64,000 bases of DNA from Zobellia barbeyronii (GTDB lineage Bacteria > Bacteroidota > Bacteroidia > Flavobacteriales > Flavobacteriaceae). Made by a program: the position numbers and the translations under genes. Location: assembly GCF_018603515.1 (NCBI RefSeq), contig NZ_JACATN010000002.1:124001-188000 (forward strand), in the 5' to 3' direction. Shown here piece by piece: positions 39,357-64,000 of this stretch. Under the pieces are notes generated by a model that did no database searches, was not told the origin of the DNA, and was given only the letters and a program-made list of their open reading frames with translations. Position 1 is the first letter of the stretch. Each line of letters begins with the position of its first letter.

Positions 39357-39956
39357 TTAAGATAAATCTGAGCTTATTAATTTTAAAAACTCATTCCGAG
39401 TTTCAATTTTTTCGAATTGCCCTCTAAATCCGGATGTTGTGGTGACAGAATTCTGCTTTTGAACCCCACGCATCATCATACACATATGCGATGCTTCTAT
39501 TACTACCGCAACACCTTTAGGCTTTAAAGTACTATTAATACACTCCAGAATATCATGCGTAAGACGTTCTTGTACCTGCAAACGACGCGCAAAAACATCT
39601 ACCACACGTGGAATCTTACTTAAACCTACAATATGACCATTTGGAATGTATGCCACATGTGCTTTACCAAAGAAAGGCAACATATGATGTTCGCAAAGCG
39701 AATACAATTCTATATTCTTAATGATGACCATATCATCATAATCTTCTTTGAACATGGCGCTTTTAAGAATTTCTACAGCATCTTGTTGGTAGCCTTGCGT
39801 TAGAAAAAGCATAGCTTTGGCTGCTCTTTCAGGTGTTTTCACCAAACCCTCTCGAGTGACATCCTCTCCTATTCCATCTATAATTTTTGAAAAACGGTCT
39901 TTGACCTCCGTTGTGATTTCCATATTATATTCCTCAAAATTTTTATAAGGTACCAT
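39357..39956 (-). CDS. folE: GTP cyclohydrolase I
   Basis: A 199-residue FolE: GTP to 7,8-dihydroneopterin triphosphate, entry step to folate and to tetrahydrobiopterin-like pterins. Zinc ligands and catalytic residues are visible: [20 protein letters not shown] (about 86-105), [25 protein letters not shown] and MCMMMRGVQ. The start ATG at 39956 ([11 protein letters not shown]) fits the family; an internal ATG at 39923 has a better-placed GA-rich ribosome site and is possible. Directly upstream is a 36-bp inverted repeat also found before the pterin, peroxidase and DUF2237 genes at 53-57 kb, with the -7 element of this gene inside it. Confidence 0.96.
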
Positions 39957-39968
39957 AAAGGTTTCTTG

Positions 39969-40004
39969 TTTTGTTTATTGTATGTGCAAAAATAGTGAAC
40001 AAAA
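39969..40004. promoter_or_regulatory. 36-bp inverted repeat, folE copy
   Basis: TTTTGTTTA (39969-39977), 18 bases, TGAACAAAA (39996-40004): the left arm is identical to the copies at 55.6 and 57.1 kb, and the right arm matches TAAACAAAA at 8 of 9. On the minus strand a -7 element TATTTTTG (39994-39987) lies inside the spacer, so a bound protein would control folE directly. Confidence 0.6.
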
Positions 40005-48203: not shown

Positions 48204-51200
48204 TTAAAGGGTTAGGTAATTTATGGCGATAACTATTTGGTTGTATTGCTCTAGTTTGTCTAAATAATCTAGCTTTACTTCATAAGCACTTTCCAAACTC
48301 TGTATGTATTGGTAAAAATCTACTTCGCCATTTTTAAAGCTTCCATTGGCTGTTTTTAAGATTTCATCAGACAAAACGGTTCCTTCTCGCTCGTAATAAT
48401 CCAAGGAACTTTTCAATTGGTCCATCTGCTCTTTTAACGTCTCGTATTTTGCTTTCAGTTGAATTTCATATTCGTTATATTCTTCGGCGGCTATTTCCTT
48501 AGCAAAACCTGCTGCTTTAATTTTATACGCCTGCCCGCCAAACAAAATGGGAATCTTTAATCCTACTTGGTATCCGTACAAATTACTATTGAGTCCGGAG
48601 TTGGTGCCTTGAAAATAATTTAAGCTTATATCCGGCAACAGCCGTTGTTTTTCAAAACCGTACTTTACTTGTAATAAGGAAATCCTTTTTTGGTAATAGT
48701 CTAATTCTGAACTCGTACTTATGTCAATGGAATTAAAACCTACTTTTAGAATAGTTTCATTCGCAATCACCAATGGTTCCTCTGACTGTACTACCTTCAT
48801 TAAATCTACATAGGCCAATGCTACGTTCTGTTGAGATTCAAGATATTTTATATTGATTTGCTTCTGTTTTGAAGCTGCGGTAATCTTTTCCAAATAATTG
48901 GTTTCACCCAGTTCAAAACGTCTAGCAGCCATACTAGAAAAGTTAGCATACAGACTGTCTAACGTAGCTAGGACACGTTGCTTTTCACGAGCAATTTGAT
49001 AGGCATAATATGCACCTGTAACCTTACGTTTCAAACCTTTTTCTTGTATATCATAAGAACTTGTAGTCAAAGCCAAGCTAGCTTTGTTTACTTTTTTCTC
49101 TGAAAAATAAACCGTTGGAAACCTAAAGTCTTGCTGTACGCCATATACTCGTAACGGTTCATTGTTTGATGCTAAATTATTCTCGTCAAACTCATAATAC
49201 ACCTGGGTTTTATCAAAACTGAAAGCACTGTTAACTAACGCATTTGATTGGTCTACTTCTAACCTATTGGCATTAAGACCTGCATTATTTTCCATGGCCA
49301 TTGGAATCAAAATTTCCAAATCCACGGGAGCTTCTTGCGCATTGTTATTTATGGTGAATAGTAGTAAGAGCGTAGTTAGGACCGAAAGTTTGCTTCCCTT
49401 GGCCGTTAACCCACCTTTTTTGGGCGAATTAAAATAAGCATATAAAACGGGCAATACCACCAAGGTTAATAGTGTAGCTGTAATTAAACCTCCAATAACC
49501 ACCGTGGCCAACGGGCGCTGAACTTCCGCTCCTGCGTTTGTTGAAATAGCCATAGGCAAAAAGCCAAAAGCTGCTGCCATTGCGGTCAATAAAACAGCTC
49601 GCAACCTATCTTTAGAACCCTGCTTAATCAATTCATTAATATCACTAAATTGATTCCCTTTTTTAAGTTCTTTAAAATGTTCTATTAAAACAATTCCGTT
49701 AAGAACGGCTATTCCGAATAAGGCAATAAAACCAACTCCAGCAGATATACTAAACGGCAAACCGCGTATCCATAACAACAATACGCCACCCACCGCTGCC
49801 AGAGGTATGGCGGAATAAATCATTAAAGCTTCTTTAACCGATTTAAATGCAAAATATAGGAGTACAAATATTAGAATTAAGGCGATAGGGACCGCAACCA
49901 ATAACCTAGATTTTGCACTCTGAAGATTTTCAAACTGGCCTCCATAGGTTATAGAATACCCTATGGGTAAGGTTATATTATCACTTATTAGTTGCTGTAC
50001 ATCGTTTACGACGGATTGTAAATCTCGGTTACGTACATTAATCCCCACTACAATTCTTCGCCGGGTATCATCACGTGATATTTTTGCAGCACCTTTTTGA
50101 TAGGTAATATCAGCCAATTCACTTAGAGGTATTTTGCCTCCTCTTGGCAAGTCTATATAAAGATTTTTTAGGTTGTCTATATCCTGCCTTAATTTTTTGT
50201 CCAAGCGAACTACGAGATCAAAACGTCTTTCGCCTTCAAAAACATTTCCGGCACTACGTCCTGCAAACCCCATGGATATCATATCATTTACCTCTTGAAT
50301 ATTTAGGCCGTACCGTGCAATCTTGGCTCGGTTAAACTTCACATTCATTTCAGGAAGTCCCGCTATTTTCTCAACCGAAATATCTGCGGCACCCTCTACA
50401 CTTTCGATTAACGCACCAATTTCATTTCCTTTTTTTGCTAGAATATCAAGGTCATCGCCAAATATTTTGATGGCAATATCCGCACGAACTCCTGTAATAA
50501 GCTCATTAAATCGCATTTCTATAGGTTGCGTAAATTCTACTTCCATTCCCGGAATAATTGACAGAGCTTCTTTAAAAAGATCCGCCAATTCATCCTTAGA
50601 ATTGGCAGAAGTCCATTCGCTTTTCGGCTTTAAAACAATAATTACATCACTCTCTTCCATAGACATGGGGTCCGTAGGCACTTCTGCAGCACCAATACGC
50701 GTGACCACCTGTTTGACTTCTGGAAATTTATCTAGTAAAATATTCTCTATTTTGGTTGTGATTTTCACTGTATTACTTAAGGACGTCCCCGTTTTGAGCA
50801 CAGGCTGAATCACAAAATCGCCCTCATCTAATGTGGGTACAAATTCACCTCCCATACTAGAATACAAATACACAGATATTACCAATAAAAAGCCCGCAAT
50901 ACCCAAAACAATCCGCTTGCTATGTAAAGCCCAATGAATGACTGGTTCGTATTTTGAATTTAGCCATCTCATAAGACGCACAGAAATATTCTTATCCGAT
51001 GCCATAGAGGGCTTCAAAAATAGAGAAGCTGCTACAGGAACATAAGTAAAACACAATATCATTGCGCCAATAAGAGCAAAACTAAAGGTCAAGGCCATAG
51101 GTTTGAACATCTTTCCTTCTACACCGGAGAGAGATAAAATAGGAATAAATACGATTAAAATAATCAACTGCCCAAAAATGGCAGAATTCATCATTGTTGA

Positions 51201-52538
51201 AGCCCCGTTTAATGTGATTCTATCCTTTATTAGCTGTTGTTCTGCTTTTGGGACACCAATAATCTCGTCTTTCTTTTGAGTAATCTTAAAGGCTATGAAC
51301 TCCACTATAATTACTGCCCCGTCTATAATAATTCCAAAATCAATAGCTCCTAGACTCATTAAATTGGCGTCTACTCCAAAAATATACATGAGTGATAAAG
51401 CAAAAAGCAAACAAAGCGGAATTACAGAAGCTACCACTAGCCCAGAACGCAAGTTCCCCAACAGAAGAACAACAACGAAAATTACAATTAGACATCCTAA
51501 AATAAGATTCTCAGATACGGTAAAAGTAGTTTTAGCAATAAGTTCGCTACGGTCCAAAAAAGCATTGATGTACACTCCTTCAGGTAACGATTTTGAAATG
51601 GTAGCCACCCGTTCATGAACGGCATCAATCACTTTTTTAGAATTGGCATCTTTCAACATCATTACTTGCCCCAGTACTTTTTCTCCTTCTCCGTTACCGG
51701 TTATAGCACCAAATCTGGTAGCGCTACCAAAGCCAACATCTGCAACATCTTTTATGTAAATTGGCAGGTTCCCATCGTTCTTAATCACAATATCGCCTAT
51801 ATCCTTCAAAGAAGTTACCAAACCTTCTCCCCTAATAAAATAAGCCTGATTAACCTTCTCAATATATCCCCCACCAGAAATACTATTGTTCATTTCAACA
51901 GCTTTGAAGACATCTTGGGCAGTGATGTTCATGGCATTGAGCTTTTCTGTATTTATGGCTACTTCGTATTGCTTTAAGAATCCACCCCAAGTATTAACTT
52001 CTACAACACCTGGAATACCAGAAAGCTGCCGCTTTACGACCCAATCTTGAATGGTACGCAAATCTTCTGCGTTGTATTGACCCTTATACTCCGGTTTAAC
52101 ATCTAGAATATATTGATAGATTTCTCCTAATCCTGTGGTTATGGGACCCATTTCCGGTACTCCAAAACTTTCTGGGATTTTCTCCGATGCCGATTTAATT
52201 TTCTCGGCAATAAGCTGCCTGGGCAAATATGTACCCATATCATCATCAAAGACGATGGTTACGACAGATAATCCAAATTTTGATATAGACCTAATTTCTT
52301 GTACGCCCGGTAAATTTGCCATTTCCAGCTCTACAGGATACGTGATAAATTGCTCTATATCCTGCGTAGAAAGATTACGCGAAGTGGTAATAACCTGTAC
52401 CTGATTGTTCGTTACATCGGGCACTGCTCCTATAGGTATTTGTGTTAATGAATATAAACCAAACCCTATAATAAAGGATGTAAACAAAAGAACGATTAGC
52501 TTGTTCTTTATGCTGAAATTAATGATATATGATAGCAT
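48204..52538 (-). CDS. czcA: CzcA-type heavy-metal RND pump fused to a TolC-type channel
   Basis: A 1444-residue fusion. Residues 1-~1040 form a complete RND pump with twelve membrane spans. The TM4 motif DFGIIIDGAVIIVEF is of the CzcA (Zn/Co/Cd) rather than CusA (Cu/Ag) kind. The pump part ends VVLPVLYAYFNSPKK. A signal-peptide-like hydrophobic stretch follows (about 1050-1068, LSVLTTLLLLFTINNNAQ), then a TolC/OEP domain (about 1070-1444) with the usual two coiled-coil halves. Normal CzcA proteins stop near 1040 and TolC is a separate gene. Such fusions occur in Bacteroidota. Possible signal-peptidase cleavage at NAQ/EA would release the channel. It heads an operon with the adaptor. Confidence 0.92.
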   Translation of the reverse strand: MLSYIINFSIKNKLIVLLFTSFIIGFGLYSLTQIPIGAVPDVTNNQVQVITTSRNLSTQDIEQFITYPVELEMANLPGVQEIRSISKFGLSVVTIVFDDDMGTYLPRQLIAEKIKSASEKIPESFGVPEMGPITTGLGEIYQYILDVKPEYKGQYNAEDLRTIQDWVVKRQLSGIPGVVEVNTWGGFLKQYEVAINTEKLNAMNITAQDVFKAVEMNNSISGGGYIEKVNQAYFIRGEGLVTSLKDIGDIVIKNDGNLPIYIKDVADVGFGSATRFGAITGNGEGEKVLGQVMMLKDANSKKVIDAVHERVATISKSLPEGVYINAFLDRSELIAKTTFTVSENLILGCLIVIFVVVLLLGNLRSGLVVASVIPLCLLFALSLMYIFGVDANLMSLGAIDFGIIIDGAVIIVEFIAFKITQKKDEIIGVPKAEQQLIKDRITLNGASTMMNSAIFGQLIILIVFIPILSLSGVEGKMFKPMALTFSFALIGAMILCFTYVPVAASLFLKPSMASDKNISVRLMRWLNSKYEPVIHWALHSKRIVLGIAGFLLVISVYLYSSMGGEFVPTLDEGDFVIQPVLKTGTSLSNTVKITTKIENILLDKFPEVKQVVTRIGAAEVPTDPMSMEESDVIIVLKPKSEWTSANSKDELADLFKEALSIIPGMEVEFTQPIEMRFNELITGVRADIAIKIFGDDLDILAKKGNEIGALIESVEGAADISVEKIAGLPEMNVKFNRAKIARYGLNIQEVNDMISMGFAGRSAGNVFEGERRFDLVVRLDKKLRQDIDNLKNLYIDLPRGGKIPLSELADITYQKGAAKISRDDTRRRIVVGINVRNRDLQSVVNDVQQLISDNITLPIGYSITYGGQFENLQSAKSRLLVAVPIALILIFVLLYFAFKSVKEALMIYSAIPLAAVGGVLLLWIRGLPFSISAGVGFIALFGIAVLNGIVLIEHFKELKKGNQFSDINELIKQGSKDRLRAVLLTAMAAAFGFLPMAISTNAGAEVQRPLATVVIGGLITATLLTLVVLPVLYAYFNSPKKGGLTAKGSKLSVLTTLLLLFTINNNAQEAPVDLEILIPMAMENNAGLNANRLEVDQSNALVNSAFSFDKTQVYYEFDENNLASNNEPLRVYGVQQDFRFPTVYFSEKKVNKASLALTTSSYDIQEKGLKRKVTGAYYAYQIAREKQRVLATLDSLYANFSSMAARRFELGETNYLEKITAASKQKQINIKYLESQQNVALAYVDLMKVVQSEEPLVIANETILKVGFNSIDISTSSELDYYQKRISLLQVKYGFEKQRLLPDISLNYFQGTNSGLNSNLYGYQVGLKIPILFGGQAYKIKAAGFAKEIAAEEYNEYEIQLKAKYETLKEQMDQLKSSLDYYEREGTVLSDEILKTANGSFKNGEVDFYQYIQSLESAYEVKLDYLDKLEQYNQIVIAINYLTL

Positions 52539-53038: not shown

Positions 53039-53710
53039 AATTAATTAGTTGCATGATTATCAATTCCTTGGTAATATAGAATCTGTCTACTTTACTTTTT
53101 ACGGCATTTTATTACAGTCCAATTCTTATAACTATTGAAAAAAGATGTTGATGAGATTGAGTAATTAAAATTATGCTAAGAAAAGAAGATTCTTATAGAC
53201 ATATACCTTAATAGATTGTTTTTAAGTAAAAAGAATATAGATAAGAAGATCTTCAAAATCATTTGCTTTATTCCGTATAAAACAAATAGTAATGCTTGGC
53301 TCCCTAACCGACAATTTCGTACCACAATTGTCATGTTAACTGTAATAAAGTCACCCTAAATTGTAAATGAAATAGGTTTTTTTGAAAAAAACATAAAATT
53401 CTTATAGTACGGAACCATTTTTGCTAGTAACAGTTAAAGTGCCTTTAAACATTTGGTTTATAGGGACTTTCTCTGAAGGAACTGAGAAAATTAGTTAATA
53501 ATCATCTTAGTTAGCATGGGATTGAAAATTAATTTTTAAAAATTAATGTCCCTAAATTAGGGTCATTTTAATACTATTTTGTAATTTAAGATTAAGTTTG
53601 CAATTATTTAGCGCATCATAGTGGTGTTAAAGTATTATTAATGTATATGTGATACTTGCTATTATTTTTTTGTTTAATTACTTTTATAAAAGATCAAACG
53701 TAATATATTT
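53039..53710. other. 672-base gene-free region with palindromes
   Basis: No reading frame of note. It contains a hairpin with GACAATT / AATTGTC arms (53310-53316, 53326-53332), extended by TAAC/GTTA; a 20-bp perfect AT palindrome (53528-53547); and a dyad CCCTA-AAT-TAGGG (53550-53562). The last 43 bases hold the weak copy of the 36-bp inverted repeat (53668-53703). It could encode a small RNA or be a long control region; no known RNA family is recognised. Confidence 0.5.
53668..53703. promoter_or_regulatory. 36-bp inverted repeat, weak copy before the DUF2237 operon
   Basis: TTTTGTTTA (53668-53676), 18 bases, CAAACGTAA (53695-53703). The left arm is identical to the other copies; the right arm matches TAAACGAAA at 7 of 9. 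It ends 7 bases before the ATG at 53711, so the true start of that gene may lie further in. Confidence 0.4.
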
Positions 53711-53938
53711 ATGGACATTTTAGAAGAAGCATCAAATTTTGAAACTGCCAAAATGAGTCATATGAGTACCAGTGATAGGGTAACGGCTTCGCGTGAAGCA
53801 AAAAGACTTATTTTAGAAATCAACGAAATTTATAAAAAGACGCAAGATTCAAATTTAATGGATGTCATGAAGCGGTTAACCGCTAAGAAAAAGAGAATTG
53901 ACATTCGTTTAAAAGGAAGACCTGACTCAGGACTTTAG
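53711..53938 (+). CDS. Conserved small hypothetical protein
   Basis: A 75-residue soluble, basic, helical protein (NFETAKMSHMSTSDRVTASR, then EAKRLILEINEIYKK and MDVMKRLTAKKKRID). Not recognised. It ends two bases before the DUF2237 start, so the two are translationally coupled. In-frame ATGs at 53753 and 53762 could be the real start, since an operator-like repeat and a possible -7 element (TATATTTA, 53704-53711) crowd the first ATG. Its partner and its operator suggest it belongs with the photolyase-associated genes. Confidence 0.65.
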   Translation: MDILEEASNFETAKMSHMSTSDRVTASREAKRLILEINEIYKKTQDSNLMDVMKRLTAKKKRIDIRLKGRPDSGL

Positions 53939-53940
53939 CA

Positions 53941-54315
53941 ATGCCAGAAAGTAACAAATTAAATGTTCTCGGAACTGCTTTAGAAGCTTGTTGTACCAAT
54001 CCCCCTACTGGATATTTCAGAGACGGGTTTTGCACAACTATTCAAGAAGATTCCGGAACGCACATTTTATGTGCTATTGTTACTGAGGATTTTTTAAATT
54101 TTACAAAAGGGCGTGGAAATAATCTTTCTACGCCCTTACCTCATTGGAATTTTCCCGGCCTTAAACCTGGCTCCAAATGGTGTTTATGTATTTCTAGATG
54201 GCTAGAAGCTGAACGCGCAGGAAAAGCTCCGTTTGTAGTTCTTGAGGCAACTCATCAAAAGGCTCTAGAATATACGACCTTAAAAATGCTTCAGAAATAT
54301 GAAGCCTTAGTTTAA
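53941..54315 (+). CDS. DUF2237 family protein
   Basis: A 124-residue DUF2237 protein. Nearly every conserved block is present: NVLGTALEACCTNPPTGYFRDGFC (core GTALEACC and TGYFRDGFC), SGTHILCAIVTEDFLNFTKGRGN-type stretch, LKPGSKWCLCISRWLEA and APFVVLEATHQKALEYTTL. The many Cys residues are part of the family. The function is unknown; it is widespread in bacteria, often near photolyase or redox genes. It ends 15 bases before the end of the convergent FAD oxidoreductase gene. Confidence 0.92.
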   Translation: MPESNKLNVLGTALEACCTNPPTGYFRDGFCTTIQEDSGTHILCAIVTEDFLNFTKGRGNNLSTPLPHWNFPGLKPGSKWCLCISRWLEAERAGKAPFVVLEATHQKALEYTTLKMLQKYEALV

Positions 54316-54330
54316 CTGCACCCAACATTA

Positions 54331-55593
54331 CTACCTATTGGAAGAAATGGTATTAGAGACTATTTCTACAACAGAAAGCGCAGCTCTTTCTCCAGAAATC
54401 ATAGCTGCATTCAACGAACCATTTAATTGTGTATCTCCGGCTAAAAATATATTTGTTGTTAACCGTGTTTCAGATGGCAACATGTCATATTGTAGGTTGT
54501 CCAATCTAGGAAGTGCCATTGGTATACTGTACTGTTTTATAAACTTGCACGAATCAATTCCACAGTGCTCCTTTAATTCTAATTTCACCCGTTCAGTAAG
54601 GTCTTCGCCTTTTAAATTTTGATTCTCCACTACTGTTACCGATAACAATTCTTTATTCGGTATAATATTAGTTTCCAAACTTGTGTGGTAGAAAATATTA
54701 TTGATTAACGTTCCTGGTTCAGCAACAAGACCTATGAGTGGCTTTTTAATAACTCTATTTTCTGTTTCGAAATATAAGGTATCACATGATTTCCATTCAG
54801 TTGACTGATTTTTTAAATTAGAAATCAAACTACTCGCATCTGTGGCTACTATAGAATAATGACTTTCTAATTTCGTATTATCCTCAAGTGTTATTTCGGC
54901 ATCTTTTACGGATGTTACTTTTGTATTGAATTTGAAGGTTGTGTTTTTTAGATTGTTTGCCAGCTGTTTTGGAATTTCCTCAATTCCAGATTTTGGTAAA
55001 GCAGCATACCCTTCTCCAAACATTTTGTATACAAACTCAAACATTCTACTAGATGTCTCTAACTTGTTTTCAAGAAAAATACCACTAAAGAATGGTGAGA
55101 AAAAATCTCCTATAATTTCAGAGGAAAAGCCTAATTGTTTTAAATAAGACAAAGTAGATTGCTCTTTATCAGAGAAAATATCTGACAATGTTTTTGTCTT
55201 TAATTTACTATTAAGTTTAAGTATTTTAATTTTATCAGAGAGAGTTCCAACTCCAGATAGTAATGTGGGGAATAATAGCGAGAAATCTCGTAGAGGGTCC
55301 CCAATAGCCAATTGTTTACCATTTTTAAAAATAGCGGCACCAGGCAAGAACTTTTGCAAATCTAAAGCCTCAAAATCTAGATAGTTTTGAGCTGCAGGAT
55401 AAGCCGTGAGCAACACCTGAAAGCCATGATCTAATTGATACCTATCTACAGTATCTGTTTTAACCCTTCCACCAACGCGGTCAGTAGCTTCAATAATAAC
55501 AGGAAAAAAGCCATTTTGTTCCAGAACGGTAGCTGCGATTAAACCACTGACCCCAGCACCTATAATATGTATTTTAAAGTCCTGTTTTTTCAT
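54331..55593 (-). CDS. FAD-dependent amine-oxidase-like oxidoreductase
   Basis: A 420-residue flavoprotein of the amine oxidase/phytoene-desaturase/protoporphyrinogen-oxidase superfamily. The dinucleotide motif is IHIIGAGVSGLIAATVLEQNG (core GAGVSG, about 12-17), then EATDRVGGRVKTD (about 34-46). A C-terminal FAD motif follows as NIFLAGDTQLNGSLNAAMISGERAA (core AGDTQLNGSLNAA). Enzymes of this type sit in light-induced photolyase/cyclopropane-fatty-acid clusters of other bacteria. The substrate is unknown here. The frame opens with a TTG at 55611, but the ATG at 55593 is the better start. A 36-bp inverted repeat lies 60-95 bases upstream, shared with the divergent PTPS gene. Confidence 0.86.
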   Translation of the reverse strand: MKKQDFKIHIIGAGVSGLIAATVLEQNGFFPVIIEATDRVGGRVKTDTVDRYQLDHGFQVLLTAYPAAQNYLDFEALDLQKFLPGAAIFKNGKQLAIGDPLRDFSLLFPTLLSGVGTLSDKIKILKLNSKLKTKTLSDIFSDKEQSTLSYLKQLGFSSEIIGDFFSPFFSGIFLENKLETSSRMFEFVYKMFGEGYAALPKSGIEEIPKQLANNLKNTTFKFNTKVTSVKDAEITLEDNTKLESHYSIVATDASSLISNLKNQSTEWKSCDTLYFETENRVIKKPLIGLVAEPGTLINNIFYHTSLETNIIPNKELLSVTVVENQNLKGEDLTERVKLELKEHCGIDSCKFIKQYSIPMALPRLDNLQYDMLPSETRLTTNIFLAGDTQLNGSLNAAMISGERAALSVVEIVSNTISSNR

Positions 55594-55652
55594 AATTAAA
55601 TCATTTATCAAAATAGAATAATCTTTTACTAGGCTAATTTAATAGTTCTTAT

Positions 55653-55688
55653 TTTTGTTTAACAATTAACTGCTAAAAATAAACAAAA
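55653..55688. promoter_or_regulatory. 36-bp inverted repeat, PTPS/FAD-oxidoreductase copy
   Basis: TTTTGTTTA (55653-55661), 18 bases, TAAACAAAA (55680-55688): perfectly symmetric 9-bp arms, in the 150-base gap between divergent genes. A -7-like TATCTTTA for the plus-strand gene begins six bases after it (55695), and a TACCTTTG for the minus-strand gene is at 55713-55706. Confidence 0.7.
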
Positions 55689-55743
55689 TACATTTATCTT
55701 TATCTCAAAGGTAAATAACACATAGCCGATACTTATACCATAT

Positions 55744-56157
55744 ATGAACAAAATAGCCATTACACGTTGTGAACATTTTAATGCAGCTCATAGATTGCAT
55801 AACACGAACTGGAGCGATGAAAAAAACTTCAAGATTTTTGGTAAATGTAATAACCCCAACTATCACGGACATAATTATGATCTGGAAGTTAAGGTTATTG
55901 GCTTTTGTGATCCAAATACCGGCTATGTAATAGATACAAAAGTTCTTTCTGGCCTTATTAAAGATAAAGTATTGGACAGATTTGACCATAAAAATCTAAA
56001 CTTAGATACCAAAGAATTTGAAAGTTTAAATCCTACCGCAGAAAATATCGCAATGGTAATTTATGACATTCTTAAGGCGGAGTTAGATGAAGGTCTAGAA
56101 TTACGAATAAAGTTATATGAAACGCCAAGAAACTTTGTGGAATACCCTTATGCGTAA
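55744..56157 (+). CDS. 6-pyruvoyl-tetrahydropterin synthase family protein
   Basis: A 137-residue PTPS/QueD-fold enzyme. Zinc ligands His16 (NAAHRLHN), His41 and His43 (HGH); catalytic Cys35. The spacing Cys-x5-HGH in CNNPNYHGHNY is that of animal-type PTPS (CNNPNGHGHNY) and not the Cys-x3-HGH of QueD. The C-terminal ELRIKLYETPRNFVEY carries the substrate-binding Glu. So I favour 7,8-dihydroneopterin triphosphate to 6-pyruvoyl-tetrahydropterin, a tetrahydrobiopterin-type route, rather than queuosine. The substrate is the FolE product, and the two genes share an upstream repeat. Confidence 0.88.
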   Translation: MNKIAITRCEHFNAAHRLHNTNWSDEKNFKIFGKCNNPNYHGHNYDLEVKVIGFCDPNTGYVIDTKVLSGLIKDKVLDRFDHKNLNLDTKEFESLNPTAENIAMVIYDILKAELDEGLELRIKLYETPRNFVEYPYA

Positions 56158-56184
56158 ATTGGGATTACTACTGCCTTTCTATAA

Positions 56185-56946
56185 TTACAACAGCTTTCTA
56201 ATACTAATAAAGACAATAATCATTAAGGAATACCACAAGAAGAACGGAATAATGTACTCTTTAAAGCCTGTAACCAAAAGCAAACTTATAGTCAGCAGTT
56301 GGAACCCAAGACCAAATGTTGACAAAGCCGTCATTAGTAGGTTTGGGAGTCGTTTGCCATTAGAAGCATTTGAATCTAAGGTGTAAATAATTTTATCAAA
56401 AACGCCATAAAGCGCTTTATAAAATCCAAAGAGAATATTTACATTTTTTTGCTTCTCTCCTTTTAAAGCTGTTGGAGAATCATATTCAAAAACTCTACTT
56501 GTTGTATCGCCATCTACACTATTTCTTAAAATAACATAGTAGTAATTATATAAAGTACCTTGCAGTTGAATTCCTAAAAAAGCAAAAAAACTATACATTA
56601 AATTGGCCTCTGTGGTATACCAAAGTGCTGTAAAAATAAACAGGTTTAAAATTATATCTGCAACAGAATCAAGATAGCGGCCTGTGTACGAAGGTGTGTT
56701 TTTTACTCTTGCCAACTCCCCATCGGCAGCATCTAATATTGATTTGAATATCAAGAAAAAAGCTGCAGCCCAATAATAACCAAGTATAATACAAACAACA
56801 GCTATCAAACCCGAGATTATAAACCATATCGTCACATCAATAGGTGTATATGAAGTCTCTTTAAGCGAATTTGCTATCAGTCTTGCAATAGGTCTTCCAT
56901 AATCAGAAAGGTCTATGAATTTATGCTCTTTTGGTAATTTAGACAT
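56185..56946 (-). CDS. CDP-alcohol phosphatidyltransferase family protein
   Basis: A 253-residue membrane enzyme that exchanges CMP of a CDP-alcohol for another alcohol, making a phospholipid or phosphodiester. The signature D-x2-D-G-x2-A-R-x8-G-x3-D-x3-D is complete at about 72-97 (DAADGELAR, then GRYLDSVAD). There are five to six membrane spans. The N-terminal 40 residues are cytosolic and charged. The donor and acceptor are not decided by sequence. It is divergent from the glutathione peroxidase gene; the shared gap contains a 36-bp inverted repeat. Confidence 0.9.
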   Translation of the reverse strand: MSKLPKEHKFIDLSDYGRPIARLIANSLKETSYTPIDVTIWFIISGLIAVVCIILGYYWAAAFFLIFKSILDAADGELARVKNTPSYTGRYLDSVADIILNLFIFTALWYTTEANLMYSFFAFLGIQLQGTLYNYYYVILRNSVDGDTTSRVFEYDSPTALKGEKQKNVNILFGFYKALYGVFDKIIYTLDSNASNGKRLPNLLMTALSTFGLGFQLLTISLLLVTGFKEYIIPFFLWYSLMIIVFISIRKLL

Positions 56947-57066
56947 GCTACTTTTTAATTCTGAAATTTTGAGTCTATCACCAAAAATCCATTAGAATAT
57001 ATAATTATATAAGTAATTGGTAAATGTACAATAGCCTCATGGATAAAGCCTAGCTTAACCCGTTAA

Positions 57067-57102
57067 TTTTGTTTATCATTTTACATTATTAATTAAACGA
57101 AA
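57067..57102. promoter_or_regulatory. 36-bp inverted repeat, peroxidase/CDP-transferase copy
   Basis: TTTTGTTTA (57067-57075), 18 bases, TAAACGAAA (57094-57102): 8 of 9 symmetric positions, the spacer identical in length to the other copies. It ends three bases before the -7 element of the peroxidase gene. Confidence 0.65.
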
Positions 57103-57105
57103 TTG

Positions 57106-57113
57106 TAACTTTG
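57106..57113 (+). promoter_or_regulatory. -7 element of the glutathione peroxidase gene
   Basis: TAACTTTG matches TAnnTTTG, 43 bases before the ATG at 57156. The place of the -33 element is taken by the inverted repeat, as in activator-dependent promoters. Confidence 0.5.
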
Positions 57114-57155: not shown

Positions 57156-57680
57156 ATGAAAACAACTAATAAAGCAAAACTGTCCCCAAGTACTTCTTCT
57201 AACACAAAAGAACAATCCGTCTATGATATAGCTATCAATACTTTAGATGGTAAACCTATATCTCTTTTGGATTATAAAGGAAAAAAAATACTTTTTGTGA
57301 ATGTTGCTTCTGAATGTGGGTTTACAAAACAATACAAAGAGCTACAGACTTTAAGTGACACATACAAGGAAGAACTTGTTGTTATTGGTTCTCCTTGCAA
57401 CCAATTTGGAAAACAAGAACCTGGTGATGCTTCGCAAATTCAAGAGTTTTGTGAATTGAATTTTGGAGTCAAATTCTTACTCACCGAAAAGATTGATGTA
57501 AAAGGAAACAAACAACACCCTTTATATAAATGGCTAACCTCCAAAGAATTAAATAGCAAAAAAAGCTCTAGTGTGAAGTGGAATTTTCAAAAATATTTGT
57601 TAGATGACAAAGGGAATTTAATTGATTATTATTTTTCAATTACTAAACCTATGAGTTCTAAAATAACCAAACATTTATAA
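57156..57680 (+). CDS. Glutathione peroxidase family protein
   Basis: A 174-residue thioredoxin-fold peroxidase reducing H2O2 and lipid peroxides, usually with thioredoxin in bacteria. The catalytic tetrad is visible: Cys in NVASECGFT (about 54), Gln in PCNQFGKQEPG (about 89), Trp/Asn in VKWNFQKYLLD (about 141-142). Cys replaces the selenocysteine of animal enzymes. No signal peptide; cytosolic. Its stop codon shares a base with the start of the next gene, a membrane protein. The 36-bp repeat directly before its -7 element suggests regulation with the photolyase-associated genes. Confidence 0.93.
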   Translation: MKTTNKAKLSPSTSSNTKEQSVYDIAINTLDGKPISLLDYKGKKILFVNVASECGFTKQYKELQTLSDTYKEELVVIGSPCNQFGKQEPGDASQIQEFCELNFGVKFLLTEKIDVKGNKQHPLYKWLTSKELNSKKSSSVKWNFQKYLLDDKGNLIDYYFSITKPMSSKITKHL

Positions 57681-58102
57681 TGTCAATAGCTATCATTAGG
57701 CTTCTATTAGATTTTGGCCTTGTTGTCTTAATTTGGATTATACAACGTATTGTCTACCCGAGTTTTCTTCATTATGAAACTCAAAATCTAATTGTTTGGC
57801 ATAATGCTTACACTGCTCGTTTTAGCACCATAGTCATACCATTAATGCTTGGCCAACTTGCCATTTCTATCTATCAAGTTATTGTAGTGGCTAATTTATA
57901 TACCGTAATAAGCATAGTATGTATTGTTCTTATATGGGCATCTACTTTCTTGCAGTTTGTACCTATACATTCTCAAATCTCAAAAGGAATAGTTAGTGAA
58001 AAAATGTTGATTTCACTCGTTAAAAAGAATTGGACGCGAACCATATTATGGACGTTGCTATTTATATTTAGCTTTACTTATTATGCTTATTGGAGTCTGT
58101 AG
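57680..58102 (+). CDS. Four-helix membrane protein, function unknown
   Basis: A 140-residue protein with four hydrophobic helices (about 5-22, 48-68, 74-95, 118-138). Conserved-looking polar positions lie in the first loop (WHNAYTARFSTIVIP) and third loop (FVPIHSQISKG). The arrangement is reminiscent of small DUF1772-like proteins, but I cannot assign it. TAATG overlap with the glutathione peroxidase gene shows translational coupling. It ends 7 bases before the end of the convergent CIA30 gene. Confidence 0.65.
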   Translation: MSIAIIRLLLDFGLVVLIWIIQRIVYPSFLHYETQNLIVWHNAYTARFSTIVIPLMLGQLAISIYQVIVVANLYTVISIVCIVLIWASTFLQFVPIHSQISKGIVSEKMLISLVKKNWTRTILWTLLFIFSFTYYAYWSL

Positions 58103-58109
58103 AGTAGGT

Positions 58110-58607
58110 TTATTTTAAAACGATAGAACCAATTTCTAGTTTAAAATCTTCTGCTTTTTTATTACCTATTAAAAAAGCAACCTCCTGAATACTGTTACCA
58201 TCATAATTTGGAATATTTAGCTTACGACCTCTAAAAGTAGGATACATGTCTGCTAGAAGCAACTCTATAACTCCCCAATCTTCTGATGTATTGAAGTATG
58301 ACACATAAGAATGATCATCTGATACGTTCTTTTTTAATCTAAACTGATATTTTTTACCATCACCTTTTATATTCAAAATAATCTTTGAATATGGTTTTGT
58401 AACTATATCATTGAAACGATATTTTAAAGTAGAAAAACCACCATTATTATCTAATGAAACATGCCCTTCAAAAATAACCTTGCCTTCATTATTTAAATGG
58501 ACGGTTCCGCATGACTTCCCGCCCATGACAACATCGTCTATCACTTTCCAATCGTTAATATCATTCACTGCATTGAAATCGAAAATAGTGTAAAGTTGTG
58601 TTGTCAT
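58110..58607 (-). CDS. CIA30 family protein
   Basis: A 165-residue CIA30 (complex I intermediate-associated protein 30) domain, a jelly-roll fold. Visible: DINDWKVIDDVVMGGKSCG (core DDVVMGGKS, about 21-29), FEGHVSLDNNGGFSTLKYRF, KIILNIKGDGKKYQFRL and the C-terminal IQEVAFLIGNKKAEDFKLEI. Whole single-domain protein, cytosolic. The function of bacterial members is unknown; they occur in photolyase-containing clusters. Last gene of the minus-strand operon, 18 bases after the PhrB-like gene. Confidence 0.87.
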   Translation of the reverse strand: MTTQLYTIFDFNAVNDINDWKVIDDVVMGGKSCGTVHLNNEGKVIFEGHVSLDNNGGFSTLKYRFNDIVTKPYSKIILNIKGDGKKYQFRLKKNVSDDHSYVSYFNTSEDWGVIELLLADMYPTFRGRKLNIPNYDGNSIQEVAFLIGNKKAEDFKLEIGSIVLK

Positions 58608-58625
58608 TAGAAATATTTAATTACT

Positions 58626-60107
58626 TTATAAAGTCGATAAAAAAGCTTGTCCATTCTCTAAATGCTGTTGCTGTTTCTCAGCAGGCATCTTATCAAACAT
58701 TCGCACTAGCATTCCTAAGCGCGGATTTGATAAAAAGAAATCGCGATGTACATGCATAAAACGCCAAAAGAGCCCATCCCAAGTGTCCTGCCACTCCCCT
58801 TTTTTATAGTTGCTCATTTTTAATAAATAATTACTGCCACTGATATAGGGTTTGGTTGCCATAAGCCCACCATCTGCAAATTGACTCATTCCATAAATAT
58901 TAGAGACCATAACCCAATCATAAGAATCTATAAAAAGTTCCATAAACCAAGTATAGACTTCATCCGGATCAAACTCGCACAGCATCATAAAATTACCTAA
59001 AATCATTAGACGTTCTATGTGGTTACAATACCCTGTTTGTAATACTTTTTTAATGGTTTGATCAATTGGCGGAATACCAGTTGTTCCATCATAAAAAGAA
59101 GACGGTATTTTTCTTTTAAACTTCCAGAAATTAGTTGTGCGCTCTTCACTACCTCTAGATTCATAAATACCTCTCATAAACTCTCGCCATCCTATGATTT
59201 GCCGGACGAAACCTTCGAGAGAATTGATGGGTACCTTGTTTTCTTCAGCATATAGTAAACAAGCTTCAATAATTTCTTTAGGCGTTATTAAACCTACATT
59301 GAGCATGGGCGTTAAAACGCTGTGGTTTAAAATAGAATTTTCAGCAACCACTGCATCTTCATAGGTACCGAACTCCATAAAGCGTTGCTCAAAAAACTGA
59401 TGCAACCACATTTGGGTTGTTTCAAAACTTGTTGGATATAAGGACTGTTTTGTTAGAATTCCTAAATGATTAGAAAAGTGCTTTTCTACATAGGTTATAG
59501 CTTCTTCATAATAGATATCTACATCTGGAAATTGAATAGAAGGAGGCGTTTTCTTAGCAGGATATTTCTTTCTGTTTTCCGCATCAAAAGTCCATTTTCC
59601 ACCTGTAGGTTTACCATCAGCATCTATTAAAATATTTCGCTTTTTACGCTGCTCAGTGTAAAAGGTAGTTTGATGGTATTTCTTTTTATCGGTTCTAAAA
59701 AAAGTCGCTAAATCTTCTTTCGTATTTAAAAATAAAGGTGAATTGAGTATCGTTGTTGAAATATCATTTGCTAAACAGCCTTTTTCTATCCGCTTCTGTA
59801 ACCAATTATCCGTTGGGTCTATATAGTTAATATGTTCAATTCCCTGGAGCTTTAATGTTGGGATGAGCTCTCTAATATCAGAAGTTACATCCGTTTCTTC
59901 AATATAAGATACTTCAAGGTTTTTATCTTCTCTTAGAAAACTGGCATACCGCTGCATTGTAGCTCTATGAAACGCTATTTTTTGCTTGTGGAAAGGGTAC
60001 TGCTTAAAGAATAAATATTCTTCAATAATATATATGGGCGCATCCACTTCAAAAAGTGGTGACTCTTTAAATAATTGATGTGGAAATATTAAGTTGATAC
60101 TTTTCAT
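58626..60107 (-). CDS. PhrB-like cryptochrome/photolyase lacking the Fe-S cysteines
   Basis: A 493-residue member of the prokaryotic (6-4)-photolyase-like group (COG3046). The N-terminal domain has [16 protein letters not shown] and the C-terminal FAD-binding domain has [35 protein letters not shown] and [15 protein letters not shown]. In standard PhrB proteins the next stretch is a CxxC-x-Cys segment holding a [4Fe-4S] cluster. Here residues 431-445 read [15 protein letters not shown], without any of these cysteines. It may be a photolyase, or a cryptochrome with changed redox behaviour. Its ATG overlaps the stop of the DUF2256 gene (ATGA), showing coupling. Confidence 0.88.
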
Positions 60108-60232
60108 TTGTTCCTTCTACAACGTTCACTACAATATTTTACGGTGTCCCAGTTTCTCTCCCATTTTTTACGCCATGTAAATGGCCGCTCACAAACAATG
60201 CATATTTTCTCAGGAAGATGTTGTTTTTTCAT
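60104..60232 (-). CDS. DUF2256 zinc-ribbon protein
   Basis: A 42-residue protein easily missed because of its size. It has Cys11 and Cys14 (CIVC) and Cys34 and Cys38 (CSERC), a four-Cys zinc-ribbon pattern, with a Trp/Arg-rich centre ([11 protein letters not shown]). This is the DUF2256 signature, known to be encoded beside cryptochrome/photolyase genes in many bacteria. Function unknown; the basic, aromatic centre would suit nucleic-acid or protein contact. The start overlaps the stop of the flavin reductase gene by one base (TAATG), and its stop overlaps the start of the photolyase gene (ATGA). It is therefore translated as a coupled middle gene. Confidence 0.92.
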
Positions 60233-60861
60233 TACTCAAATTCAGGCATCTTGTTTAACCTAGCATAAGGATGGTTCTCTATCTTTTTTAAGGAGTAGTA
60301 ACTATTTAAACCTGAAATACCCACGGCGTTGGTTGTTTCTAAATCAATATCTCCGTCTATCATAGCATTGTCCGGCAATATCAAATGTTCAATTTCGCCA
60401 ATAATCAAAGTCGTTCCGTTGTGCTTAATATCAATTGCTTCTACAAAACGCATTCCTATTTTAAAACTGCTTTCTTTAACAAAGGGAGCTTTAAAATTAG
60501 TTATGTATTCTTCCGTAAGTTTACATCGTTCAAATTCAGAAATATCTACATCAAATTTTGCCGAAGTGTAATGTGCATTTTTTACAAATTCAGGATGAAT
60601 GTGATTAATAGTATAGGTTCCGTTTTCTAGAATATTACGATACGTATGCCCCACTTCTGCCGTTCGTGGTCTAGCGATAAAGCCTAGAAGCGCAGGGTCA
60701 CTGCCTAAGTGTACCACAGAGCTGAAAATAGCAAGATTAGTCTGTCCTTTATTATTTATAGTACCTATAAGATTAGCCGGCTTAATTCCCGTAACCGAAT
60801 TAATTATTTTTAGTTTAGTAACACGGTCTAGTTTTACTATATCTTCTTTAGTATACATCAT
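60232..60861 (-). CDS. Flavin reductase family protein
   Basis: A 209-residue flavin-reductase-like protein with the FMN-binding split-barrel fold. Visible: [31 protein letters not shown] (core [16 protein letters not shown], about 33-48), LGFIARP, and [22 protein letters not shown]. Members use NAD(P)H to reduce free or bound FMN/FAD. In this setting it might supply reduced flavin to the photolyases, which need FADH-; that link is inference from gene position. The cryptochrome gene ends four bases before its start, and the DUF2256 gene overlaps its stop. Confidence 0.85.
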
Positions 60862-60865
60862 ATTA

Positions 60866-62320
60866 TTATCTATTGACGTGGGTATTTAAAAGGCGATTCT
60901 TCTCTTGCTGCACTGCGGGATGTTCTTTATGACCCCAAATCTTATCTCTGGCTGCGCGAGCACTTTCTTGTAAATCTACAATGGGTAAAGGATAATCCTC
61001 TCCTATTATAACACCACAAAAAGTTTGTTCCATTGCTGTCATTTTCCAAGGCTCATGAATATGAACGATTGGTATATTACCGAGTTCTGGAATCCACTTT
61101 TTAATGAATATACCCTGTGGGTCGTGTTCTTTCGAGTTCTTAATCGGGTTGTATAAACGTACCGTGTTAATACCCGTAGTACCAGCTTGCATTTGAAACT
61201 GTGGATAGTGAATACCTGGCTCATAGTCTAAAAACTGTCTTGCCAAATGATAAGTGCCGTCCCGCCAATCTTGGTCTAGATTGAGTGTTAAAAATGAAAC
61301 CACCATGGCGCGCATTCTAAAATTTACCCACCCGGTTTGCTCAACAGCCCGCATACATGCATCAATTAACGGATAACCGGTTGTACCAGTTTTCCAAGCT
61401 TTAATAAAAGCTTCGTTCTTTTCATGTTTTAGTAATTCATATCCATTATTAATACAATGCGTCTCATAACGACATTCTACTTCAAATTTCTGTATGAAAT
61501 GACAATGCCAATGCAAACGAGTAAGCATAGCAGAAAAAGTATCGCTGTTTTTTGTTCCGTTAGGGTGTATTCCTATAAACTGAAAAGCTTGCTTAACACT
61601 TAGGTTACCCCAAGCCAAATAAGGAGATAAACGGCTGCAGGCCGTTCTACTTTCTGTTGGTTTTGAAATATGCTTTTTATAATTAAAACCTCTTTGAGCA
61701 GCAAATGATTTCAAATACCGCCAAGCATTGTATTCCCCCGCAGGTTGGTACTGTTTTGGGTATAATTGTAATTGGTATTCTAATTTTACAGGAATTATAA
61801 AATGATGTGTAAATGGCTTTTCTTCTGAAACTGAAAACTTGTTTTGAATCACAGGCTCATGCATCTTAGCGTGCCATTGCTTATTCCAATCGTCTCTGTT
61901 TTTGATACCTCTTAAAATACCATCCCGTTGGGATTCTTCCCAAAGAATACTATTTTTTTTACAAAACGATTTCACTTTCTTGTCACGGTGCCAAGTAAAC
62001 TGAGTGCCACTTTCACGAAAGCTAAAAATGCCTTTTACATCAAAACATTCTTGAAGATGCTTAAACACATCACTAGCTTCTCCATAAAATACATCTACGT
62101 TTCTATTAAAGGGTGCCAGTGTCTTGTTTAAAGCCACAATGGAATGATATATAAACTGCAAATGCCGTGGACTCGTATCTGGATACGCTATAAAGCTAGG
62201 CTCAAACAAATAAACAATGCGGTACGGTATACCTGCTTGCTCCGCTTTTAGCAAGGGCTCATGGTCTTGCGAACGAATATCACGTTTTAACCAAACAATA
62301 TGTATAGCCTGCTTTTTCAA
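60866..62320 (-). CDS. Cryptochrome/deoxyribodipyrimidine photolyase
   Basis: A 484-residue two-domain photolyase-superfamily protein. The N-terminal alpha/beta domain has [19 protein letters not shown] and [11 protein letters not shown]; the linker [18 protein letters not shown] leads to the FAD-binding domain, with [47 protein letters not shown] (core [11 protein letters not shown]) and the FAD-contacting region [21 protein letters not shown]. All parts of a normal photolyase are present. It repairs UV dimers or senses blue light. The start is a TTG whose last two bases begin the TGA stop of the preceding gene, so translation is coupled. Confidence 0.92.
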
Positions 62321-63435
62321 TAGGTAAGCTGCTTTTTACATTTTTTCCAGAAAGCAAAGAAAGACGGATAATACCCTTGCACATCAAACATCCATTCTCT
62401 TGGCTCTTCAAAACCTTCATAATGCTTATTTAAAGGATGTTCTTTATAATAAACGTCCTTTGTTTCATAATCAGAAATGAACTCATTAAACTCGCCTACA
62501 TAAACCTGAATATTCTCTATATTTTCGGCAGAAATAGTGAATATAAAATCAAGTGTTTTTAGGGAAACAGGATAGCTTCTGAAATGTGAAGGTTCTAATA
62601 GCAAAATTCTATTTGCAGTAGTATCTTTTTTCCATAACGGATCTAGGTTATAGAAATTATAGATACAAGCAGGCATGTCTTTATCAATAGTAATCGTTTG
62701 CTTCTTTGGTAAGGGCGTTTGTAAAACTAAGGTTGAAGTCTTTTTTAAAATTTCAGGGACCTCTAATCCACTAAAAGCTTCATAAGGCACATCTAAAAAG
62801 GTGTTTTTTTGTTGAGTAAAGCTGTATTTATTGATGTTCTCCTGATTGGCAACGTACTTCTTATTTGCATTTGCCCCAGCAACAGATTGCCAGCTTAACG
62901 CATTACTAGCCCAATCTGCATCTAGTAAATGATAATACATCCATTGTGCAGGAACTTTCCAATGACTTTGGGCCACATTACACGCCATAGATGCAATATA
63001 CATTCTTAGGTGATTGTGTAAATAACCCTCATCGTAAAATTTCTTAATAGAACTATCAATAGCATCAATACCCGTATCTGCTTCAACAATAGCTTTTGAA
63101 ATTGAATGATTGGAAACTGGTGTTTGCTGATTTTTTAAATCCGAATTAATAGCATCTCCTTTAGCAATCCATACTTGTTGCCAGTAATCTCGCCAAGCCA
63201 ATTCTTGAATAAATTTTTCAATTTGTGCAGGTTGATAGCCTCGCTTTAAAACTTCAGAAAGAATAAATTTTGTTGAAATAATTCCTCTAGAAATATAGGG
63301 AGACAAATAGGTAACTGAACCATTTACAAAATTTCGTGTTTTACCATACTTAACCGGATCAATATTACGAATACGCTGAAGAATTTCAGAATATGAAGTT
63401 GGAAAAATAGAATCTTGGTCTTCAAACAATTCCAT
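62317..63435 (-). CDS. Photolyase-like FAD-binding protein without N-terminal antenna domain
   Basis: A 372-residue protein that begins directly with the photolyase FAD-binding helical domain: [76 protein letters not shown] and [21 protein letters not shown]. The usual N-terminal Rossmann-like antenna domain is absent. Instead, about 110 residues follow at the C-terminus ([48 protein letters not shown]) that look like an alpha/beta domain. This would be a swapped domain order. It may be a partner or a light-independent flavoprotein. The ATG directly follows the TIGR03643 stop. Confidence 0.85.
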
Positions 63436-63726
63436 TTATCGCTTACTTATTTTATTCCCTGAAATAGCTCTTTGGCGCGAAGATTTAAAACGAGTAATAT
63501 CTGAACTGCGTTTCTTTAAATGCTTTTGGCTAACTCCACTATTAACGCGTTTGCGCCAACGCTTAAAACTAGATTCCTTAAGGTTGCCACGCATAACCTT
63601 AATGACTTCCTTTTCCGGTAAACCAAACTGAAACAGAATAGCTTCAAAAGGTGTTCTGTCCTCCCAAGCCATTTCTATTATACGGTCTAATTCTCTTTCT
63701 GTAAATTGTTTTGTTTCTGTTGTCAT
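63436..63726 (-). CDS. TIGR03643/DUF2805 family protein
   Basis: A 96-residue basic protein of the TIGR03643 family. The N-terminal helix-rich core FTERELDRIIEMAWEDRTPF (about 8-27), then IQ-like FGLPEKEVIKVMRGNLKESSFKRWRKRVN, a helix-turn-helix-like section with Trp-Arg, and a very basic tail RSSDITRFKSSRQRAISG. DNA or RNA binding is plausible by charge, unproved. Found almost always beside photolyase genes. I use the ATG at 63726 (MTTETKQFTE); an earlier ATG at 63762 would overlap the DUF2452 stop by 29 bases. The next gene begins with no gap. Confidence 0.85.
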   Translation of the reverse strand: MTTETKQFTERELDRIIEMAWEDRTPFEAILFQFGLPEKEVIKVMRGNLKESSFKRWRKRVNSGVSQKHLKKRSSDITRFKSSRQRAISGNKISKR

Positions 63727-63733
63727 ACTAAAA

Positions 63734-64000
63734 CTAGATTTTTTCCCAAATTTGGTCTGCATTCAAATAAAAGCTTCCTAATGCATTAAATCTACATTCT
63801 TCTGGTGCTATTATGGAAAGAAAAGATTCTCCGTTTTCCCTCTTATATAAATGATAGACTTTACCAATAATGGGTTCAAAATTGAATTTTGCATTATAAA
63901 TGAGTTTGTTGAATTCAAACTCTTGCATCATTTTATCATATTCCGCCTTTAACTCAAGATATCTTGCTTCAATCTTATGGTTTACTTTACTTATACTTCT
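63734..64000 (-). CDS. DUF2452 family protein (partial, runs off the window)
   Basis: The C-terminal 88 residues of a DUF2452 protein. The frame is open through the right edge: residues before the internal MMQEF read KVNHKIEARYLELKAEYDK, which matches the helix of the family before its C-terminal core FEPIIGKVYHLYKRENGESF and EECRFNALGSF. DUF2452 proteins are about 150-170 residues, so roughly half is missing and the real start lies beyond base 64000. The apparent start at 63931 is only an internal Met. It ends 7 bases before the TIGR03643 start and is the first visible gene of the photolyase operon. Confidence 0.88.
   Translation of the reverse strand, partial: RSISKVNHKIEARYLELKAEYDKMMQEFEFNKLIYNAKFNFEPIIGKVYHLYKRENGESFLSIIAPEECRFNALGSFYLNADQIWEKI

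Follow-up and report, generated by a model that had tools for sequence, protein, structure and literature searches.

What reads the inverted repeat that recurs in promoters around the photolyase genes of Zobellia barbeyronii? The question is raised by a 64,000-nucleotide stretch of contig NZ_JACATN010000002.1 (assembly GCF_018603515.1, positions 124,001 to 188,000; G000:C22:124001-188000 in our numbering of this 4.98 Mb genome), here called the window at its full length, in which a first-pass annotation had noted three copies of a 36-base repeat, taking them as the binding sites of a single regulator that controls a photolyase-associated regulon and naming a MerR-type light sensor of the LitR/CarH family as a candidate. 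We conclude, with a probability of about 0.8, that the core of this repeat, TGTTTA-n18-TAAACA, serves as operator for a MerR repressor of the LitR/CarH family that co-regulates light-response genes. That one regulator governs a photolyase-associated regulon is supported by conservation of the operator at litR and at photolyase operons and by its co-occurrence with LitR.

Operator copies in the window

A pattern scan located the three copies at 53668, 55653 and 57067, each with the 18-nucleotide spacer already reported, and all were scored against the full pattern TTTTGTTTA-n18-TAAACAAAA (two nine-base arms, 18 positions). The copies at 55653 and 57067 are strong and that at 53668 is weak, its right arm, earlier counted as 7 of 9, in fact matching TAAACAAAA at 6/9 positions. 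A further copy, upstream of folE, was absent from the first list. The -7 box consensus is TAnnTTTG; candidate boxes are given with the sites, as are scores from a position weight matrix (PWM) introduced below.

55653..55688, operator with perfect arms (0/18 mismatches), in the divergent gap between an FAD oxidoreductase gene (- strand) and a 6-pyruvoyl-tetrahydropterin synthase (PTPS) gene (+ strand); kept in G103, of the same genus; PWM 23.9
55650..55657, + strand, candidate -7 box TATTTTTG, overlapping the left arm of the 55653 operator in the PTPS direction
57067..57102, operator with 1/18 mismatch, in the divergent gap between a CDP-alcohol transferase gene (- strand) and a glutathione peroxidase (GPx) gene (+ strand); arms kept in G103; PWM 20.3
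57106..57113, + strand, candidate -7 box TAACTTTG, directly 3' of the right arm of the 57067 operator
57064-57071, second candidate -7 box TAATTTTG, overlapping the left arm of the 57067 operator
39969..40004, operator with 1/18 mismatch, upstream of folE (- strand); PWM only 9.0
40007-40000, - strand, candidate -7 box TACTTTTG of the folE-side operator
53668..53703, weak operator-like site with 3/18 mismatches, upstream of genes for a 75-aa protein (sp75) and a DUF2237 protein; PWM 15.8

The repeated 36-base signal is a real operator, and its strong copies are not AT-rich noise, as the first-pass annotation had argued: with nine-base arms and ≤1 mismatch, the window holds three sites against 0.005 expected from 200 order-2 Markov sequences of 64 kb, of which 0/200 reached three, and no spacer from 10 to 26 other than 18 gave a site in the window at this threshold. 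At ≤3 mismatches there are four sites against 0.6-0.7 expected, so the copy at 53668 is not significant alone. The 12-base core at ≤1 mismatch yields three window sites against 0.7 expected, a count reached in 9/200 simulations. The 53668 copy corresponds to sites whose right arm is CAAACG in both G103 and G106, and to CGTTTA..GAAACG in G101; two sp75 relatives in other genomes carry a zero-mismatch core site (L081 and L102, loci chosen for carrying the pattern). The further copy suspected past base 64000, before DUF2452, was found at G000:C22:188377-188412, with no mismatch in the core and 3/18 in the longer arms.

LitR and the operator at its own gene

One LitR/CarH-like protein of about 298 aa is encoded in the genome (G000:C35:72229-73122); two MerR_1 proteins were found there, the second merely 109 aa long. 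The MerR/LitR gene that had been sought just past the window thus exists, with a site at its own start codon and carotenoid genes beside it, but on another contig. Its product has an N-terminal MerR domain (PF13411, E 2.2e-13) and a B12-binding_2 helical bundle (PF02607, E 2.7e-11), and its nearest named relatives are from Zobellia (81% and 78% identity). The closest PDB entry is CarH of Thermus thermophilus both by sequence (E about 2e-13) and by fold (5c8d, E 4.7e-14), with about 20% identity in the structural alignment. In an AlphaFold2 (AF2) model with a predicted local distance difference test (pLDDT) score of 87.8, the sensor domain aligns with the cobalamin-domain chains of CarH at a target-normalised template modelling (TM) score of about 0.85; the full-length model superposes poorly (TM about 0.55), while single domains fit well. 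Residues W142, E152, H153 and H192, the W-x9-EH motif and cobalt-ligand histidine, are invariant in 21/21 LitR orthologues and align with W131, E141, H142 and H177 of CarH, which are described as key for binding adenosylcobalamin (AdoCbl) (PMC11796333). A search with PF02310 was rejected as a finder of the regulator, giving only two long open reading frames (ORFs), of 925 and 721 aa, the latter presumably methylmalonyl-CoA mutase from its sequence.

The gene order is litR-crtI-crtB-crtZ (crtI and crtZ named from sequence, crtB from SQS_PSY). Comparisons were made on the best-scoring litR loci: 30 of 84 family genomes with a match, 80 of 588 named ones, and 29, besides its own, of 125 class genomes. 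In the first two sets, crtI follows litR in 29/30 and 78/80 loci. In Z. barbeyronii the site TGTTTA-n18-TGAACA overlaps the litR start codon, and a site lies over the start at exactly -23 in 27/30 family loci and, with ≤2 mismatches, in 73/80 named loci; an exact TGTTTA stands at -23 in 67/80 of the latter, the runner-up position having 3. The right arm is usually the start codon region itself, ATGAACA. Where litR does not begin with ATGAACA (for example L215, L218 and L234), a complete site with a separate TAAACA stands farther upstream, and because these loci keep a full site the constraint seems to act on DNA rather than on coding sequence. A second operator stands just before crtI in 15/30 family and 22/80 named loci. 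Across the class, a site with ≤1 mismatch lies within 300 nucleotides before litR or about its 3' end in 20/29 loci, without mismatch in 15/29; outside the family a litR-flanking site occurs in 14/23 loci, from 11 other families. Arms and spacing are thus kept at litR within and beyond the family, as they are by photolyase operons, which answers the expectation of conservation in relatives.

The operator also follows LitR from genome to genome. Among 100 sampled family genomes, 69 have LitR (≥220 bits), nine a distant LitR and 22 none, and the census pattern was a zero-mismatch 14-base match to TTGTTTA-n18-TAAACAA. The 69 LitR genomes contain 161 such sites, litR-adjacent ones included, against 17 for the reversed-pattern control; the 22 LitR-less genomes contain 12 against nine, with 7/12 in G079. 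At least one site is present in 66/69 LitR genomes and 5/22 LitR-less ones. In the LitR genomes the 18-base spacer is about 14 times commoner than others, which give 11.8 (spacers 12-17) and 10.7 (19-24) sites each; the corresponding figures for LitR-less genomes are 4.3 and 4.7. Near-matches with a 27-base spacer occur at 10/30 family and 40/80 named litR loci and look like an effect of the coding sequence right after the start codon. Alternative spacers were dropped as operator geometry after the spacer comparisons at litR loci and across genomes.

Among the matches listed, with litR-linked ones left out, there are 48 sites in 22 LitR genomes, four in three LitR-less genomes and seven in G079. 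Those deep inside ORFs number 2/48, 4/4 and 0/7, respectively, as against 1678/2200 random positions (522/2200 not deep).

Genes beside the operator

The window copies adjoin the following genes.

39357..39956, - strand, folE, GTP cyclohydrolase I
53711..53938, + strand, sp75, no Pfam match
53941..54315, + strand, DUF2237 protein
54331..55611, - strand, FAD-dependent amine-oxidase-type oxidoreductase
55744..56157, + strand, PTPS paralogue
57156..57680, + strand, GPx
57680..58102, + strand, 140-aa protein, membrane-like by eye, no Pfam match, probably co-transcribed with GPx
58110..63762, - strand, photolyase operon: CIA30, DPRP-type photolyase, flavin reductase, two photolyase-family proteins, DUF2805

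The photolyase operon, whose genes would be co-transcribed, runs beyond the window into DUF2452, upstream of which lies a zero-mismatch core (C22:188380-188409, window-equivalent 64380). Relatives of sp75 sit in photolyase clusters of G069, G085, G009, G008 and G055, and the FAD oxidoreductase relative in G106 likewise has a zero-mismatch core site at its start. The genome has a second PTPS gene (G000:C31:555495-555890); a 77% identical relative of the window PTPS, in G066, also stands with a photolyase cluster. Within the genus, the whole window block is matched by G103 only (eight other genomes compared). Elsewhere in the window, a 1444-aa ORF (48204-52538) resembles, by eye from its translation, a CusA-type RND pump fused to an outer-membrane efflux domain.

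Across the rest of the genome, the sites that could be interpreted among 40 core matches with 0 or 1 mismatch, followed by one further, tentative site, are these.

C22:188380, before the DUF2452-DUF2805-photolyase operon; PWM 34.8
C31:534151, gap between TetR-ABC1 and HtpG (the latter 78% identical to a Pfam-named HSP90); PWM 32.4
C22:373970, ThrE/DUF4199 gap, tentative; PWM 31.5
C31:483446, beside a fasciclin-type gene; PWM 22.9
C11:731886, PAS/AraC gap; PWM 21.9
C35:72206, across the litR start codon; PWM 21.4
C22:314590, before SRPBCC-SDR-photolyase (SDR, short-chain dehydrogenase/reductase); PWM 15.7
C11:127539, before an AraC gene, tentative
C35:113991, the further tentative site

The PWM rests on 18 sites taken outside this genome, including two from the congeneric G106, and was applied to 41 preselected sequences (the 40 plus sp75), 10/41 of which scored ≥15. 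The PTPS/FAD copy ranks fourth, after the first three sites above, GPx eighth, and sp75 and SRPBCC next.

Larger regions around photolyase genes were read in 19 other genomes, those of G067 and G079 being interrupted by contig ends. A zero-mismatch core site stands before or within the photolyase cluster in ten LitR genomes (G063, G050, G026, G086, G069, G076, G085, G009, G008 and G065) and in G079 too; none was seen by the photolyases of LitR-less G004, G055 and G081 or of distant-LitR G014, G066 and G025. Relatives of folE, sp75, SDR, SRPBCC-photolyase, TetR and ABC1 lie together with photolyases in G069, G085, G009 and G008, joined by GPx in three of these four, which supports the view that the scattered targets of Z. 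barbeyronii mostly form one regulon. PTPS proteins in the relatives read are mostly 57-65% identical and probably another paralogue; one of the PTPS loci L104-L132 has a site, at one mismatch.

Because the labels fasciclin, GLPGLI, HSP90 and rhodopsin derive from site-adjacent proteins, their source loci match by construction and recurrence in other genomes alone counts. Fasciclin genes adjoin 15/48 sites among the matches listed, spread over 12 genomes; TetR/HSP90, GLPGLI, DUF2452, SRPBCC, flavin reductase and sp75 genes adjoin others, and some of the neighbouring genes are unlabelled. TetR upstream regions carry sites in G000, G069, G085, G009, G008, G027, G039 and G012. The gap between rhodopsin and beta-carotene 15,15'-dioxygenase genes carries an operator in 2/2 loci, L312:7294-7325 (G034), selected for this very site, and L090:1043-1117 (G086), selected for a match elsewhere, which suggests that proteorhodopsin itself is under light control. 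Paired operators 40-45 bp apart, about four helical turns, were seen at L320:2253/2296, L322:1844/1887, L314:1702/1744, L323:2145/2185 and L090:1043/1088, and perhaps act cooperatively.

Promoter registers, rival explanations and significance

With -7 boxes read in target orientation, and litR loci with more than two mismatches at -23 left out (7/80), three registers appear. The box overlaps the operator left arm at litR (72/73), lies within the spacer against the right arm at crtI (35/37), and stands 5 nucleotides after the right arm at photolyase clusters (8/16 exact, 11/16 as TAnnTTT). Predicted boxes in all three registers thus overlap the operator or stand within 5 nucleotides of it. At many second-site loci (L043-L072, L182-L261) the box ends roughly 8-12 nucleotides upstream of the crtI ATG, which may leave the crtI mRNA with little or no leader.

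CarH acts by light-induced derepression and recognises the half-site TnnACA (PMC9304148, PMC8156234). The arms TAAACA/TGAACA fit this half-site and overlap predicted promoter elements, and a regular TnnACA occurs nowhere but in the two arms, the right one read on one strand and the left one on the opposite strand. A bound protein would block RNA polymerase in each of the three registers, which favours repression over classic MerR activation. From these observations we infer that LitR binds the operator, represses in the dark and depends on B12 and light. In the dark, LitR, probably loaded with AdoCbl, would sit on both inverted TnnACA half-sites and occlude the promoter; on illumination it would come off, and its targets would be induced together with litR itself: carotenoid synthesis, photolyases, flavin reductase, FolE, PTPS, GPx, fasciclin and TetR-ABC1/HtpG.

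A number of results weigh against this picture. Zero-mismatch sites of LitR genomes lie almost all outside gene interiors; most one-mismatch core matches in the Z. barbeyronii genome are background, 40 matches at ≤1 mismatch comparing with 28 for the reversed pattern. Two candidates score low on the PWM (folE, 9.0; AraC187, 7.1), and the FolE relatives in photolyase clusters share just 39-41% identity and could represent a different paralogue; folE would be the least certain of the named targets. The three promoters first proposed are unequal, two strong and one, at 53668, weak. No litR-flanking site was found in 9/29 class-wide loci, five of them of family f10. Three LitR genomes (G092, G010 and G085) lack a zero-mismatch 14-base site, although G085 nonetheless has two core sites, and LitR genomes G092 and G067 show no core site by their photolyases, the G067 cluster being cut by a contig end. 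G079 has seven sites, several at typical targets, yet no LitR was found in it, probably because of a gap in its incomplete assembly (81% complete, 610 contigs). Nine genomes with distant LitR contain six sites against one for the control, and 1.0-1.3 per other spacer; the 77% identical PTPS of G066 has no site, though LitR of G066 is only distant. As the genomes are interrelated and the LitR-less ones smaller, the P values for co-occurrence do not rest on independent draws. Finally, CarH uses three or four tandem 11-bp direct repeats, unlike the two inverted half-sites with an 18-bp spacer here; CarH-style repeats were sought and rejected, as sets of 16, 73 and 22 operators showed no series at 11 or 22 bp.

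The alternative that survives best, though we consider it unlikely, is that LitR occupies the operator without sensing light by way of B12, a partner photoreceptor (a short PAS/LOV protein) relieving repression as for class II LitR of Pseudomonas, which acts with a short LOV partner (PMC9758184). Pfam finds no match to PF02310, the Rossmann B12-binding domain, and the published light-responsive cobalamin signature, GxxW, EH, GxxH and GxxxP (PMC11796333), keeps three of its four elements, GxxH being replaced by NEIH (NxxH). A 170-aa PAS protein (L022:3312-3824, G000:C11), similar in size to short LOV proteins, shares a site-bearing gap with an AraC gene; by eye, it lacks the LOV cysteine. The invariance of the W-x9-EH motif and ligand histidine, together with the alignment of the sensor domain to AdoCbl-bound CarH chains, argues instead for the B12-dependent LitR repressor. 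It is improbable that the operator is read by a different regulator of this regulon, such as the TetR_C_23 protein of TetR-ABC1, with LitR a mere target. Sites before TetR in eight genomes, its own promoter included, can be read as autoregulation, but the link to litR, examined more broadly, extends beyond the family, and the half-site agrees with CarH/LitR proteins. That LitR is a classic MerR activator, binding an over-long promoter spacer and untwisting DNA, is a reading to which the MerR DNA-binding domain and the inverted repeat lend themselves, but the three positions of the -7 box relative to the operator would be intolerable for an activator of fixed geometry, and we regard it as very improbable. 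That the repeats arose by chance or only accompany -33/-7 promoter sequences is conceivable in a window of 34-37% G+C, with a left arm able to contribute to a TAnnTTTG box, and in a genome with such background. It is almost certainly the wrong explanation in view of the spacer specificity, the LitR link, the fixed litR register and the position outside gene interiors, chance being refuted for the two strong copies while it may still account for that at 53668.

A LitR repressor of this kind would resemble CarH of T. thermophilus, Bacillus megaterium and myxobacteria (LitR class I) in its MerR domain, helical bundle and predicted Rossmann-like domain, its W-x9-EH motif and ligand histidine, its carotenoid gene neighbours, its promoter-overlapping operator and its TnnACA half-site (PMC9304148, PMC8156234), while differing in the N that replaces the G of GxxH and in its low identity, about 20%. 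The target set recalls the light-inducible genes of PplR1/PmlR2, class II LitR repressors of Pseudomonas putida and P. mendocina: photolyase, folE and other pterin genes, SDR, FAD oxidoreductase and a cryptochrome-like protein (PMC9758184). Those regulators, however, have a short LOV partner, are not B12 dependent and recognise half-sites T(G/A)TACA-N12-TGTA(C/T)A, with a spacer of 12 rather than 18, and the excerpted account names no carotenoid genes (PMC9758184). In Bacteroidetes, a MerR-family gene at the crtI-crtB-crtZ cluster has already been published for Flavobacterium sp. TH167 (PMC5887021) and Nonlabens spongiae (PMC11855829), in excerpts that mention neither an operator nor a part played in light response nor other targets. 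MliR of Bizionia argentinensis is, like LitR, a MerR-domain protein, but is described as having 109 residues, no sensor domain and a link to iron (PMC9478572), its length being that of the other MerR protein of our genome. The crt genes of Chryseobacterium lacus are light-induced, and its authors, in the excerpted text, report neither car nor lit operon genes and surmise that a regulator not yet known is at work (PMC7064467). Among the literature matches listed, we recognised no description of a LitR/CarH operator or regulon in Bacteroidetes. The regulator family itself is known; the arrangement of the operator is new, as is part of its broad regulon.

In sunlit water, flavobacteria rank among the major heterotrophs. 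We lean towards a light regulon throughout the class Bacteroidia, in which a branch of LitR would read the inverted TnnACA n18 operator in three promoter registers and govern carotenoids, photolyases, pterin synthesis, fasciclin adhesins, HtpG and, where present, the proteorhodopsin / beta-carotene dioxygenase gap, light thus turning on rhodopsin phototrophy in marine flavobacteria. Light sensing in flavobacteria has been little described, and the finding offers an operator that can be scanned for, a single candidate sensor and predicted targets, among them DUF2452, DUF2805, DUF2237 and sp75, whose functions are unknown. It suggests a different mode of DNA reading by LitR-type proteins, and outlines a single circuit, open to testing, that takes in photoprotection, DNA repair, pterins and perhaps rhodopsin.

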